A DNA stretch of 64,000 bases from positions 248,001 through 312,000 of the forward strand of contig NZ_PUDR01000004.1 in NCBI RefSeq assembly GCF_003012935.1, given 5' to 3'. The translations under genes and the position numbers were made by a program. The notes below the pieces were generated by a model, which was not told the DNA's origin, did not search any database, and saw only the letters and a list, made by a program, of their open reading frames with translations. Shown here piece by piece: positions 22,711 to 32,031 of the stretch (its first letter is position 1; every line of letters begins with the position of its first letter). The stretch comes from Pannonibacter carbonis. GTDB lineage: Bacteria > Pseudomonadota > Alphaproteobacteria > Rhizobiales > Stappiaceae.

Positions 22711-22749
22711 AAAAGAAACCCCGGCGCGCGCGAAGGGTCGCGGCCGGGG
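22711..22749 (-). terminator. Rho-independent terminator of the ugpC copy 1 operon
   Basis: CCCCGGC and CGCG pair with CGCG and GCCGGGG, followed on the minus strand by TTTCTTTT. The same terminator occurs behind ugpC copy 2 and marks the end of the long inverted repeat. Confidence 0.82.
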
Positions 22750-22809
22750 CTGGGGGAAGTGCCTGGTTTGTGGTTCTGATGTGCGGTTCTGGCGTCCGTC
22801 TTCCTGTCT

Positions 22810-23940
22810 TCAGCGCGGGATGCGTTTGCCTGTAGCCTTGTCGAAGGGGTGGATGCGGTCGGTGGGGGCGGTGAAGGAGAGGACTTCGCCGGGCTGGTGG
22901 CGGGCGGCGGCGGGGACGCGGATGACCACATGCGGGGCCGCGCTGTTTGCCACTGTGCCGGTTGCCGCACTGTCACCGCCGATGGTCGCATAGAGGTAGC
23001 TCTCTGCGCCGACCGGTTCGAGCACGGTGGTGGTGACGGTGAGGCTGAGGTCGCCGGGGCCGGCGGGCCGCTCGCTGGCCGGCACGAAGTGCTCGGGCCG
23101 CACGCCCAGCGTATAGCCTGCCCCGTTGGCAAGGTCCGGACCGGCGAGGCCGCTGCCCCCTGCTGCCGTTTCGCTGTCGAGGGTTGCGCGGCCATCCCGC
23201 ACGCTGACCGGGATCAGGTTCATGGCCGGCGAGCCGATGAAGGAGGCAACGAAGGTGGAGGCGGGCTGTTCATAGACCGAGATCGGATCGCCGATCTGCT
23301 CGATGGCCCCGCCATTGAGCACGACGAGCCGGTCGGCCAGCGTCATGGCCTCGAGCTGGTCATGGGTGACATAGACCGAGGTGGTGCCGAGGCTCTTCTG
23401 CAGGCGCTTGATCTCGACGCGCATCTGCACACGCAGCTTGGCATCGAGGTTGGAGAGTGGCTCGTCGAAGAGGAAGGCGGCCGGCTCGCGCACGATGGCG
23501 CGGCCCATGGCCACGCGCTGGCGCTGGCCGCCGGAGAGGGCCTTGGGCTTGCGCTCGAGGAAGGCACCGATCTCGAGGATGCGGGCCGCTTCCTTCACGC
23601 GGCGGTCGATCTCGTCCTTGGGCACGCCGCGATTGCGCAGGCCATAGGCGAGGTTGTTGTAGACGCTCATGTGCGGATAGAGCGCGTAGTTCTGGAACAC
23701 CATGGCGATGTCGCGGTCGGCCGGATCGATCCGGTTGACGACCCGGTCGCCGATGCTGATCGTGCCCGAGGAAATCTCCTCGAGCCCGGCAATCATGCGC
23801 AAGAGCGTGGACTTGCCGCAGCCCGACGGACCCACCAGCACGATGAACTCGCCATCGGCGATGTCCATCGACACACCCTTCACCGCCTCAACACCGCCAG
23901 CATAGATCTTGCGGACTTCCTCTAGACTGATCGTCGCCAT
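22810..23940 (-). CDS. ugpC: Ugp-type ABC transporter ATP-binding protein, copy 1
   Basis: ATPase of the MalK/UgpC (CUT1) class, 376 residues, that energises the importer from the cytoplasmic side. Walker [20 protein letters not shown] (about 37), Q-loop, signature [18 protein letters not shown] (about 134), Walker [16 protein letters not shown] and the switch His ([15 protein letters not shown]) are all present. A C-terminal TOBE-type regulatory domain follows ([11 protein letters not shown]). It is the last gene of the ugpBAEC operon, one nt behind ugpE. The other copy at 30798 is almost identical over the first 250 residues, then differs in scattered positions. Confidence 0.93.
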
Positions 23941-23941
23941 T

Positions 23942-24790
23942 TTACTTTTCCGTCTCCACAAGACCTTTGACGAAGAGCTTCTGCATCACGATGATGACAA
24001 GCACGGGCGGCAGCATTGATAGGACGGCTGCGGCCATCACGTAGTTCCAGTAGGGCAGGCCATCGGCCACATCGGCCATGCGCTTGATCGCCATGACGAT
24101 CGTGTAGTAGCCCGTCTCGGTGGTCACCAGCATGGGCCAGAGATACTGGTTCCAGCCGTAGATGAAGAGGATCACGAAGAGCGCGGCGATGTTGGTCTGC
24201 GACAGCGGCAGCAGAATGTCGCGGAAGAACTTCATCGGTCCCGCACCATCGACCCGGGCCGCTTCCAGAAGCTCGTCAGGAACCGTCAGGAAGAACTGGC
24301 GGAACAGGAAGGTTGCCGTCGCGGAGGCGATCAGCGGCACTGTCAGTCCGAGATAACTGTTCAGCATGCCGAGGTCGGCCACGACCTTGAAGGTCGGCAG
24401 GATGCGCACTTCCACGGGCAGCATCAGGGTGACGAAGATCATCCAGAAGAAGAACTGGCGGAACGGGAAGCGAAAATAGACGATCGCGAAGGCCGACAGG
24501 ATCGAGATCGCGATCTTGCCGGTGGCGATGATCAGCGCCATCACCAGCGAATTGAGCATCATCGGCCCAAGCGGCGGCGCGCCGGAGGTGCTGGCCCCGG
24601 TGGTCAGCAGGTCCCAGTAGGTCTGGAAGGCATGCGGGCCGGGAACCAGCGGGATCAGGCCCGACATGAACTCATCCGGCGCCCGAGTCGAGGCGATCAG
24701 CGCAACATAGACCGGAAACGCGACGACAATGACGCCGAGGATCAGGACCAGATGCGCAAGGGCAGTGAGCCAGGGTTTGTTTTCGACCAT
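23942..24790 (-). CDS. ugpE: Ugp-type ABC transporter permease UgpE, copy 1
   Basis: Inner-membrane permease of 282 residues with six predicted helices. The EAA loop that contacts the ATPase is [21 protein letters not shown] (about 195-215), and [21 protein letters not shown] is typical of UgpE. It forms the translocation pore with UgpA for glycerol-3-phosphate or glycerophosphodiester uptake. The start at 24790 lies 12 nt behind the ugpA stop. It is clearly diverged from its counterpart at 29946, in contrast to the ugpC genes. Confidence 0.92.
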
Positions 24791-24802
24791 GACGGACTTG
24801 TC

Positions 24803-29935: not shown

Positions 29936-29945
29936 GGAGAACACC

Positions 29946-30788
29946 ATGTCCCGGTTCAAGCCGCTCGATCACCTGATCCTCATGCTGGGCGCCTTCATCA
30001 TGATCGCCCCGGTGGTGATGGCCTTCCTGACCTCCACCCACTCCGCCGTCGCGATCCACCAGAACGGACTGATGCTGTCCCTGGGCGACGAGTTCCTGTC
30101 GACCTATGGCAAGGTGCTGACCCACAAGGGCGGGTTCACCGGCCAGGTCACCGGCATGACCATGCTGATGAACTCGCTGATCCTTGGCGTCGGCTTTGCC
30201 GTGGGCAAGATCATCCTGTCGATGCTTGCCGCCTACGCGCTGGTCTATTTCCGGCTGCCGCTGGCGAGCCTGTTCTTCTGGATCATCTTCACCACGCTGC
30301 TGCTGCCGCTCGAGGTGCGCATCCTGCCATCCTATGAGGTGGTTCAGGGGCTCGGCATGCTCAACAGCTATTCCGGCCTGATCGTGCCGCTGCTGGCCTC
30401 GGCCACCGGCACTTTCTATTTCCGCCAGTTCTTCCGCTCCGTGCCGGAGGAACTGGTCGAGGCCGCCCGCATCGATGGCGCCGGTCCCGTCCGGTTCTTC
30501 CTCGACATCCTGGTGCCGACCTCGCGCACGATGATCGCCGCGATCTTCATCATCATGTTCGTCTACGGCTGGAACCAGTACCTCTGGCCGACGCTGATGA
30601 CCAATGACGAGGGCTATTACACCCTGGTGCGCGGCATCAAGACGATCCTGCTCGCCTGGATCGGTTCCAACATCCCTGAGTACAACGAGGCCTTCGCCCT
30701 GACGATCCTGGCCATGCTGCCACCCGTGCTCATCGTGGTGGTGTTCCAGAGCTGGTTCATCAAGGGCCTGACCGAAAGCGACAAGTGA
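29946..30788 (+). CDS. Ugp-type ABC transporter permease (UgpE-like), second system
   Basis: A 280-residue permease with six predicted helices. The EAA loop EAARIDGAGPVRFFLDILVPT lies at about 174-194, and LPLEVRILPSYEVVQGLGMLN matches the same element in UgpE1. It forms the pore of the second importer with the permease at 29054. Ribosome binding site GAGGAGAACACC precedes the ATG. It ends nine nt before the second ugpC, and sequence identity to operon 1 begins abruptly at that ATG. Confidence 0.9.
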   Translation: MSRFKPLDHLILMLGAFIMIAPVVMAFLTSTHSAVAIHQNGLMLSLGDEFLSTYGKVLTHKGGFTGQVTGMTMLMNSLILGVGFAVGKIILSMLAAYALVYFRLPLASLFFWIIFTTLLLPLEVRILPSYEVVQGLGMLNSYSGLIVPLLASATGTFYFRQFFRSVPEELVEAARIDGAGPVRFFLDILVPTSRTMIAAIFIIMFVYGWNQYLWPTLMTNDEGYYTLVRGIKTILLAWIGSNIPEYNEAFALTILAMLPPVLIVVVFQSWFIKGLTESDK

Positions 30789-30797
30789 GCGACTGCG

Positions 30798-31931
30798 ATG
30801 GCGACGATCAGTCTAGAGGAAGTCCGCAAGATCTATGCTGGCGGTGTTGAGGCGGTGAAGAGTGTGTCGATGGACATCGCCGATGGCGAGTTCATCGTGC
30901 TGGTGGGGCCGTCGGGCTGCGGCAAGTCCACGCTCTTGCGCATGATCGCCGGGCTCGAGGAGATTTCCTCGGGCACGATCAGCATCGGCGACAGGGTCGT
31001 CAACCGGATCGATCCGGCCGACCGCGACATCGCCATGGTGTTCCAGAACTACGCGCTCTATCCGCATATGAGCGTCTACAACAACCTCGCCTATGGCCTG
31101 CGCAACCGCGGCGTGCCCAAGGACGAGATCGACCGCCGCGTGAAGGAAGCCGCCCGCATCCTCGAGATCGGCGCCTTCCTCGAGCGCAAGCCCAAGGCCC
31201 TCTCCGGCGGCCAGCGCCAGCGCGTGGCCATGGGCCGCGCCATCGTGCGCGAGCCGGCTGCCTTCCTCTTCGACGAGCCGCTCTCCAACCTCGATGCCAA
31301 GCTGCGCGTGCAGATGCGCGTCGAGATCAAGCGCCTGCAGAAGAGCCTCGGCACCACCTCGGTCTATGTCACCCATGACCAGCTCGAGGCCATGACGCTG
31401 GCCGACCGGCTCGTCGTGCTCAATGGCGGCGCCATCGAGCAGATCGGCGATCCGATCTCGGTCTATGAACAGCCCGCCTCCACCTTCGTTGCCTCCTTCA
31501 TCGGCTCGCCGGCCATGAACCTGATCCCGGTCAGCGTACGTGACGGCCGCGCAACCCTCGACAGCGAAACGGCAGCAGGGGGCTCCAGCCTCTCCGGTCC
31601 GGATCTTGGCAATGGAACTGGCTATACGCTGGGCGTGCGGCCCGAGCACTTCGTGCCGGCCAGCGAGCGGCCCGCCGGCCCCGGCGACCTCAGCCTCACC
31701 GTCACCACCACCGTGCTCGAACCGGTCGGCGCAGAGAGCTACCTCTATGCCAGCATCGGCGGTGACAGCGGGGCAACCGGTGCAACAGTTACAAACAGTT
31801 CTGCCGCGCATGTGGTCATCCGCGTCCCCGCCGCCGCCCGCCACCAGCCCGGCGAAGTCCTCTCCTTCACCGCCACCGCCGACCGCCTCCACGCCTTCGA
31901 CAAGACAACCGGCAAACGCATCCCGCGCTGA
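30798..31931 (+). CDS. ugpC: Ugp-type ABC transporter ATP-binding protein, copy 2
   Basis: MalK/UgpC-class ATPase of 377 residues, virtually the same protein as at 22810-23940: identical Walker A, signature, Walker B and switch His. The differences I can see are KSVSMD versus KGVSMD near residue 21, scattered changes at about 265-280 ([13 protein letters not shown]), a one-residue insertion around 325 ([11 protein letters not shown]) and changes in the last 20 residues. It completes the second B-A-E-C operon. Because the two ATPases are almost the same, each could probably serve either permease pair. Confidence 0.93.
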
Positions 31932-32030
31932 AGACAGGAAGACGGACGCCAGAACCGCACATCAGAACCACAAACCAGGCACTTCCCCCAGCCCCGGCCG
32001 CGACCCTTCGCGCGCGCCGGGGTTTCTTTT
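30798..32030 (+). repeat. Long inverted repeat, copy 2 (ugpC plus terminator)
   Basis: Partner of 22711-23940 in opposite orientation, about 1.23 kb. It starts at the ugpC ATG and ends within TTTCTTTT of the terminator. The two copies bracket about 6.9 kb containing both ugpBAE sets, so homologous recombination between them would invert that segment while leaving both operons intact. Confidence 0.9.
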
Positions 32031-32031
32031 T
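31992..32031 (+). terminator. Rho-independent terminator of the ugpC copy 2 operon
   Basis: CCCCGGC-CGCG pairs with CGCG and GCCGGGG, followed by TTTCTTTTT. The sequence is the same as behind copy 1 except for the end of the T-run. Confidence 0.82.

Follow-up and report, generated by a model that had tools for sequence, protein, structure and literature searches.

Two specificity cassettes and one resident ATPase gene at the ugp locus of Pannonibacter carbonis, read as a variant of in-situ operon displacement

Gene content of the double ugp locus

The window under study, a stretch of 64,000 nucleotides (nt) on contig C28 of the 4.78-Mb genome of Pannonibacter carbonis (G000 below), contains two divergent ugp operons bracketed by an inverted repeat. 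Each operon encodes an ATP-binding cassette (ABC) importer, with genes for a substrate-binding protein (ugpB), two permeases (ugpA, ugpE; together with ugpB the BAE block) and an ATPase (ugpC). Both sets were full open reading frames (ORFs), B1-A1-E1-C1 on the minus strand and B2-A2-E2-C2 on the plus strand, as had been noticed in an earlier reading made from the letters alone (the sequence-only reading). The following features were assigned:

22711-23940, minus strand: left arm of the inverted repeat, made up of ugpC1, a 3' non-coding stretch and a terminator (repeat search and alignment)
22810-23940, minus strand: ugpC1 (NCBIfam UgpC NF008653, above cut-off)
23942-24790, minus strand: ugpE1, permease of the type-1 cassette (NF008210, 398 bits, cut-off 297)
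24803-25687, minus strand: ugpA1, permease of the type-1 cassette (NF007852, 394 bits, cut-off 335)
25780-27108, minus strand: ugpB1, type-1 substrate-binding protein with a complete glycerol 3-phosphate (G3P) pocket of Y, E, S, W, W, S, G, Y, R (NF008211, 556 bits, cut-off 411)
27109-27625, no strand: divergent control region common to both operons; its extent presumes a ugpB2 start at 27626, preceded by AAGGAG
27217-27248, no strand: candidate operator pair on the operon-1 side, two copies of TTCATATGAA (at 27217 and 27239) with 22-bp spacing
27495-27506, no strand: candidate operator TTTCATATGAAA on the operon-2 side, with a third TTCATATGAA palindrome at 27496-27505
27626-28936, plus strand: ugpB2, type-2 substrate-binding protein, Glu replaced by Asp and the first clamp Trp by His (NF008211, 369 bits, below cut-off 411)
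29054-29935, plus strand: ugpA2, permease of the type-2 cassette (NF007852, 276.5 bits, below cut-off 335)
29946-30788, plus strand: ugpE2, permease of the type-2 cassette (NF008210, 294.8 bits, slightly under cut-off 297)
30798-31931, plus strand: ugpC2 (NF008653, above cut-off)
30798-32030, plus strand: right arm of the inverted repeat, made up of ugpC2, a 3' non-coding stretch and a terminator (repeat search and alignment)
21674-22702, minus strand: XerC-type recombinase gene on the left flank, outside the repeat (best model recomb_XerC, 310 bits, below cut-off 335)
32230-33924, plus strand: Na/Pi symporter gene on the right flank

Start codons were picked by similarity; A1, B2 and C1 are also possible as longer frames in the ORF list. 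All four subunits of operon 1 exceeded the NCBIfam cut-offs for UgpB, UgpA, UgpE and UgpC, whereas in operon 2 only UgpC2 did so. The named relatives nearest to the window were Pannonibacter sp. SL95 (L009) and P. phragmitetus (L010).

Transfer between the arms of the inverted repeat

The arms of the 1.23-kb repeat (22711-23940 and 30798-32030) were 96% identical overall, with 6857 nt between them, and aligned in two ungapped pieces: 22958-23940/30798-31780 (983 nt, 97%) and 22711-22956/31785-32030 (246 nt, 95%). The sequence-only reading had described near-identical ugpC genes and terminators with sharp ends, and the base-by-base alignment agreed: similarity began at the ugpC ATG, spanned the terminator and ended after the T-run. 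There were 43 coding substitutions between ugpC1 and ugpC2 and none in the first 99 nt past the stop; the proteins showed one difference in residues 1-263 and 15 other differing alignment columns beyond. Identity between the arms thus reached non-coding sequence and had sharp ends, as concerted evolution by gene conversion requires. The clear divergence of B, A and E that had been claimed was also found: the synonymous distance (dS) of these paralogs within G000 was 0.77-0.99 and their non-synonymous distance (dN) 0.44-0.54, against 0.096 and 0.02 for the ugpC pair. In a genome-wide comparison (40 of 196 candidates scored), the next-best match to the repeat by score was 72% identical over 636 nt; none of the matches above 76% identity exceeded 80 nt, the highest being 89% over 38 nt. 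Chance was excluded as the source of the arm identity because these matches were far weaker or short. The same double locus was found in the same orientation in the independent assembly G003, which argues against an assembly artefact.

Strong constraint on the protein and its codons, instead of conversion, would agree with the nearly invariant first 263 residues of UgpC. However, the synonymous distance of ugpC is about one tenth of that of the neighbouring paralogs, and pure constraint was rejected because the 99 nt past the stop are non-coding and yet identical; we give this explanation next to no probability.

The history of the arms was followed in a genus sample of five genomes, of which G003 and G004 share the double locus with G000. 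In G004 the locus was split into three contig pieces with breaks at both repeats: the XerC gene ended 284 nt before the end of contig C1, a 7112-nt contig carried E1-A1-B1/B2-A2-E2 and nothing of ugpC, and the Na/Pi symporter match started at base 337 of C3. A full-length ugpC was not found in G004 (best match 74% over 644 nt, E up to 1e-100), which is what an assembly unable to separate two near-identical copies would give. The ugpC 3' stubs on C1 and C3 were identical over 119 readable nt; in the 105-column coding part, 19-22 substitutions and 6 gap columns separated them from each of the four copies in G000 and G003. Over these columns ugpC is therefore closer within than between genomes when G004 is compared with G000 and G003 (0 against 19-22 substitutions). 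As a separate observation, the G004 XerC match (L174, at the end of contig C1) contained one TGA inside the open stretch searched.

The arms of G003 differed from each other past the ugpC stop. As judged by eye, its operon-2 arm there resembled both G000 arms, and its xerC side resembled that of G004. On the xerC side G003 and G004 thus retain a different sequence, so that in the G000 lineage the operon-2 arm overwrote the operon-1 arm past the stop. Synonymous distances between G000 and G003 fitted this direction. Either ugpC copy gave a dS of 0.10-0.12, with 0.10 for ugpC1, whose neighbours E1, A1 and B1 gave 0.34, 0.63 and 0.41; in operon 2, A2 gave 0.13, E2 0.11 and B2 0.28. The value for ugpC1 thus fits A2 and E2 and not its own neighbours, which points to operon 2 as the donor, though B2 is at 0.28. 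Identity between G000 and G003 over 17700-36800 was strongly uneven (dsbB/hsp20 98%, XerC 77%, ugpC1 97%, ugpA1 87%, ugpA2/E2 97%, aroA 86%), as if pieces had been exchanged between lineages.

These data support homogenisation of the ugpC copies by gene conversion between the arms, as the sequence-only reading had proposed: it agrees with the low ugpC dS, the identical non-coding nt and the G004 stubs, which follow the genome. The companion expectation, that ugpC clusters by genome and not by operon, was borne out for the G004 stubs and gave a mixed result for G000 against G003. Several points weigh against homogenisation. Of the variable ugpC sites of G000 and G003, 13 were shared within a genome (8 of them in one 62-nt stretch) and 5 within an operon, with none crosswise, 2 showing at least three states and 52 differing in a single copy only; the approximately unbiased (AU) test did not reject pairing the ugpC of operon 1 in the window with that of operon 1 in G003 (p 0.46); and the arm identity of G004 was read from contig ends that adjoin unresolved repeats. 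A test for clustering of the ugpC differences into conversion tracts was uninformative (longest identical run 132 nt, permutation 0.19).

The mixed sites, together with a dS between the copies (0.096) near the G000-G003 distance, would also be compatible with a single duplication, in which a single copying of ugpC accompanied the arrival of the second BAE block, with little divergence since then and no repeated conversion. We regard this as quite improbable. The G004 copies are identical where readable and well separated from the other four, and in G000, unlike G003, the left-arm 3' non-coding stretch has given way to that of the right arm; the stub identity and this replacement need transfer between the arms after the lineages had split.

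Recombination between the arms could also flip the 6.9-kb block. It had been stated that a flip would leave both operons complete with their control regions, which is correct from the sequence. A phase-variable switch of this kind would make sense of the long, near-identical inverted arms with their sharp ends and of the adjoining XerC-type gene, but we consider it very improbable: G000 and G003 share one orientation, and each operon's promoter region lies inside the block, so that a flip alters no promoter-gene pairing. No inverted arrangement was seen among the readable double loci (two of two, G000 and G003, in the same orientation; G004 is broken at the repeats, and no reads were available). 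Inversion driven by the XerC-type protein was set aside, as its lone other match in the genome (E 0.001) was 38% identical, as expected for core xerC/xerD. Moreover, a 1.23-kb repeat is far longer than a recombinase site.

Two BAE types switching at one site between conserved flanks

The relationships of the BAE blocks were examined in a tree of concatenated B, A and E sequences from 71 of 126 fetched operons, which covered all 32 family genomes, with duplicates left out, and 36 hand-picked outside loci. Types were assigned by the best tblastn match to B1 or B2; support was measured by the Shimodaira-Hasegawa-like approximate likelihood ratio test (SH-aLRT) and not by bootstrap, and one long branch (L158) was flagged. 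The tree split into two type groups with an SH-aLRT of 100 each, and each group held several alphaproteobacterial families. BAE-1 and BAE-2 are two ancient types and no recent duplicate pair. The sequence-only reading had derived the pair from an old operon duplication; this origin was set aside in view of the wide distribution and deep branch of each type. Among 87 family genomes (thresholds E 1e-120 for B2 and 1e-150 for B1), 55 contained type-2 B only, 10 type-1 B only, three both (G000, G003 and G004) and 19 neither.

Comparison of the genomic surroundings revealed that the native ugp site is one site with two ALTERNATIVES, type 1 or type 2. Of the 32 family genomes with a fetched ugp region, 21 had the ugp genes flanked by hsp20 at one end and by aroA or cmk at the opposite end; for the remaining 11, at least one flank fell beyond the fetched DNA or was not found. 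Nineteen of the 21 carried a single operon, of type 1 in 6 and of type 2 in 13, and ugpC was on the hsp20 side in all 19. A flank tree (aroA, cmk and hsp20 of 20 genomes) and a ugpC tree (22 genes) largely agreed and had type-mixed groups in common: G392 and G393 (type 1) with G394 (type 2), G408 (type 1) with G398 and G406 (type 2), and G412 (type 1) with G423 (type 2). Parsimony required five type switches in each tree (18 single-operon rows), and type 1 as a single clade was rejected by the AU test (p 4e-4 in the flank tree, 3e-4 in the ugpC tree). The types were mixed in a wider ugpC tree (69 of 124 rows) as well. Grouping of each ugpC with its own operon type, which had been named as an argument against gene conversion, was thus absent across the family, the AU p value of 3e-4 without the double-operon genomes falling to 4e-42 with them.

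The BAE-2 block also moved within type 2. G456 and G424 were sisters by flanks and ugpC, and their BAE-2 blocks could not be grouped (AU p 1e-52); two outside loci nested among the family BAE-2 sequences (p 2e-78); and the BAE-2 block of G394 grouped with that of G424 (support 93/95). Part of the ugp operon therefore has a history unlike that of its neighbours at the same site, as a mosaic operon formed by in-situ displacement requires. Since single genomes carry either type at the native site, the double locus of the window joins cassettes that elsewhere behave as alternatives. Two of the five genomes of the genus, G001 and G002, and G395, the nearest other genus by flanks, contained type 1 alone, and the order of ugpC, B and the symporter or aroA side in them was that of the native position. 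Type 2 was therefore most probably added in the common ancestor of G000, G003 and G004.

The control region was compared in pairs of neighbours that differ in type. Between G393 and G394, 124 of 145 columns upstream of ugpB were identical and ugpC was 84% identical, against 58-60% for B, A and E; between G408 and G398 the corresponding values were 93 of 100 columns, 79% and 55-60%. The ends of these upstream blocks were chosen after viewing the alignments. For scale, B, A and E of the same-type sisters G001 and G002 were 93-96% identical. A candidate operator, the palindrome TTCATATGAA, often paired 22 bp apart, was searched for in the 360 nt upstream with at most one mismatch and the duplicate loci L009, L010 and L083 left out. 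It was present in 11 of 12 type-1 and 17 of 23 type-2 operons of the family (28 of 35 together), against 0 of 77 type-1 and 2 of 10 type-2 operons outside it; in shuffled sequences about 0.25 of 89 (type 1) and 0.45 of 33 (type 2) were expected. The pair also stood upstream of B1 in G001-G004; in the G000 genome, exact matches to the tandem pair and to the 12-mer were found once each. All family operons without TTCATATGAA, of both types, belonged to the genus g281. The candidate operator thus stays with the host genome in most genera, outside this one genus. The most enriched word upstream of the type-1 operons as a set was CTGTCACA (29 of 89, against 1.2 in shuffles).

An ancestral double locus with a homogenised ugpC and differential loss, and no transfer at all, would explain why three genomes still carry both types and why the candidate operator is common to both, and the distribution among the 87 genomes can be put on its side. 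We hold it to be unlikely. The same place and orientation of either type in 19 of 19 genomes demands an inversion before some of the losses, the BAE-2 histories conflict with the genome tree both in G456/G424 and in the nested outside loci, and the type-1 rows of the family are scattered among outside rows in the BAE tree.

Replacement of the BAE block beside a resident ugpC has points against it as well. The family type-1 sequences do not form one clade. The two trees conflict on G395, which was placed beside G000/G003 by the flanks (96/97) and outside G000/G003 plus g282 by ugpC (94/93), and g281 was not recovered as one group in the ugpC tree. Vertical placement of the type-2 block of G394 was not rejected (p 0.13). 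In a third pair of differing type, G412/G423, the upstream stretch was weakly conserved, and TTCATATGAA was missing from 7 of 8 g281 operons examined, a one-mismatch site at -321 of L169 being counted as present. On balance, we think it likely that the locus is a variant of in-situ operon displacement with a fixed motor gene and exchangeable specificity cassettes.

Two side observations concern the surroundings of the site. The reading frame at 19249-19698 encodes a small protein (MTRSEFDAFC...HVIQWGG), which we take to resemble the MmcQ/YjbR type and which has look-alikes near the ugp site at three other loci in two genera (L133, L154, L166). Upstream of the Na/Pi symporter gene, at 32031-32229, there are repeats (CTGTCA at 32111; GTGACGG-4 nt-ATGACGT) that we liken to a phosphate box.

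Substrate pockets, proposed exchange and meaning

The marine UgpB of Phaeobacter MED193 binds G3P and glycerol 1-phosphate (G1P) in a pocket of Tyr64, Glu88, Ser143, Trp188, Trp191, Ser266, Gly303, Tyr342 and Arg393; the Trp pair is tied there to the small size of the pocket, and Asp102 takes the place of Glu88 in the glycerophosphocholine (GPC)-binding UgpB of Mycobacterium tuberculosis (PMC12718374). A second study equates Trp169 of Escherichia coli with Leu205 of the M. tuberculosis protein, a determinant for GPC binding (PMC7034087), and a third indicates that M. tuberculosis UgpB binds other glycerophosphodiesters too (PMC8603345).

UgpB1 possesses all nine G3P pocket residues, and so did 92 of 92 type-1 rows (89 without duplicate loci). 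In type 2, Glu88 was replaced by Asp in 34 of 34 rows (33 without duplicate loci) and Trp188 by His (27) or Gln (7), the other seven residues being kept. The pocket residues thus segregated perfectly by type. From the alignments and the mature-protein numbering, we take Trp188 of Phaeobacter to be Trp169 of E. coli. Type 1 matches the G3P/G1P-binding UgpB of E. coli and Phaeobacter MED193 at all nine positions (PMC12718374), and we infer that it imports G3P. Type 2 differs from the G3P pocket at the same two positions as M. tuberculosis UgpB, the Glu and the first clamp Trp. Because its two changed positions also differ in the GPC-binding UgpB, operon 2 is probably a glycerophosphodiester importer; import of substrates such as glycerophosphocholine by type 2 as a whole is the assignment we somewhat favour. 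Against it stand the second clamp Trp, which type 2 keeps, and the replacement of the first by His or Gln, not by the Leu of M. tuberculosis. Overall, type-2 UgpB is much closer to the UgpB of E. coli and Phaeobacter than to the M. tuberculosis protein.

Five GDPD-family matches were found in the genome and none at the ugp locus, which is neutral for the type-2 substrate. One of them, at 67779-69113 of contig C8 of G000, adjoins a ugpC-like ATPase stretch and could belong to a further glycerophosphodiester system. In 3 of 10 outside type-2 operons (L106, at 12149-13162, L142 and L143), a gene of the endonuclease/exonuclease/phosphatase family overlaps the ugpC stop, two being assigned by Pfam and the third by record annotation; this is suggestive of a phosphodiesterase for the imported substrate. 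In 21 type-1 operons, no such enzyme was seen by eye in the longest same-strand ORF near the ugpC stop, where many of the ORFs are probably not genes and no family scan was made.

We propose that two old specificity cassettes each came to be followed by a separate copy of the resident ATPase gene, ugpC, so that each operon would supply its own binding protein and permease pair and practically the same UgpC protein. Repeated conversion between the inverted arms would keep the ugpC copies and terminators alike within each genome. If one UgpC serves both permease pairs, conversion would cost little and the arms would stay alike, while E1 and E2 are too different to convert, so that similarity would end abruptly at the start codon of ugpC. 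Elsewhere in the family the site normally holds one operon, of which only the BAE block would be exchanged, with ugpC, and mostly the operator too, remaining the host's; homologous recombination within the two flanks of the block, the control region and ugpC, would exchange it alone. In the ancestor of G000, G003 and G004, type 2 would most likely have joined on the far side, in reversed orientation, acquiring a copy of the resident ugpC, although the order of these steps is conjectural. As for the sharing of UgpC, PMC7658222 reports that in E. coli UgpC can stand in for MalK and vice versa; it also states that such hybrids work less efficiently and calls multitask ATPases rather uncommon, which speaks against this part of the proposal.

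We read the ugp locus as a new variant of in-situ operon displacement. Omelchenko and colleagues reportedly described, in 2003, mosaic operons that arise by horizontal transfer and in-situ gene displacement. In such operons, part of the operon is replaced in place while its neighbours keep the host history, and the ugp site is alike in this. It differs in that repeated exchange between two ancient types has affected a defined three-gene block, the binding protein and both permeases, with the ATPase gene (and the operator, in most genera) staying fixed, and in that one clade keeps both blocks. Duplicated bacterial genes such as the tuf or rRNA genes undergo concerted evolution by gene conversion. 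Here, too, the copies within a genome stay alike, whereas the converting unit is one subunit gene with its terminator, whose partners are too divergent to convert. The erythritol loci are comparable in that one catabolic locus has alternative transporters by species; according to the available part of PMC3599248, they carry EryEFG or MptABCDE ABC transporters, judged to be analogs, and those transporters differ as wholes, whereas at ugp the ATPase is retained and the specificity part differs. PMC7658222 describes MsmX, MsmK and UgpC/MalK as CUT1-type ATPases that are able to work with more than a single permease pair. The ugp locus is like them in this respect; unlike those cases, of one gene serving several operons or of experimental swaps, each operon here has its own homogenised copy. 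In a search by titles and abstract openings, with most of the subscription literature outside its reach, no paper on exchange of the BAE block at the ugp site or on a two-type ugp locus was found.

Beyond this, we suggest tentatively that the ugp site may act as an allelic specificity locus, with promoter and motor gene fixed and the two ancient binding-protein/permease blocks between them, one for G3P and one for glycerophosphodiesters, interchangeable across genera through flank recombination; the genomes of the Pannonibacter clade would then be stable double carriers, in which the homogenised ugpC arms may swap the block that occupies the resident position.

ABC importers are usually taken to evolve in units of four subunits. 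At this site ugpC, with the control region in most genera, belongs to the genome, and the three genes that determine the substrate come and go. The locus therefore offers natural permease/ATPase hybrids with which the basis of coupling between the two components can be tested. It also predicts that the alphaproteobacterial type-2 ugpBAE would take up glycerophosphodiesters from broken-down membranes, not G3P, which would matter for reading phosphorus use from genomes.

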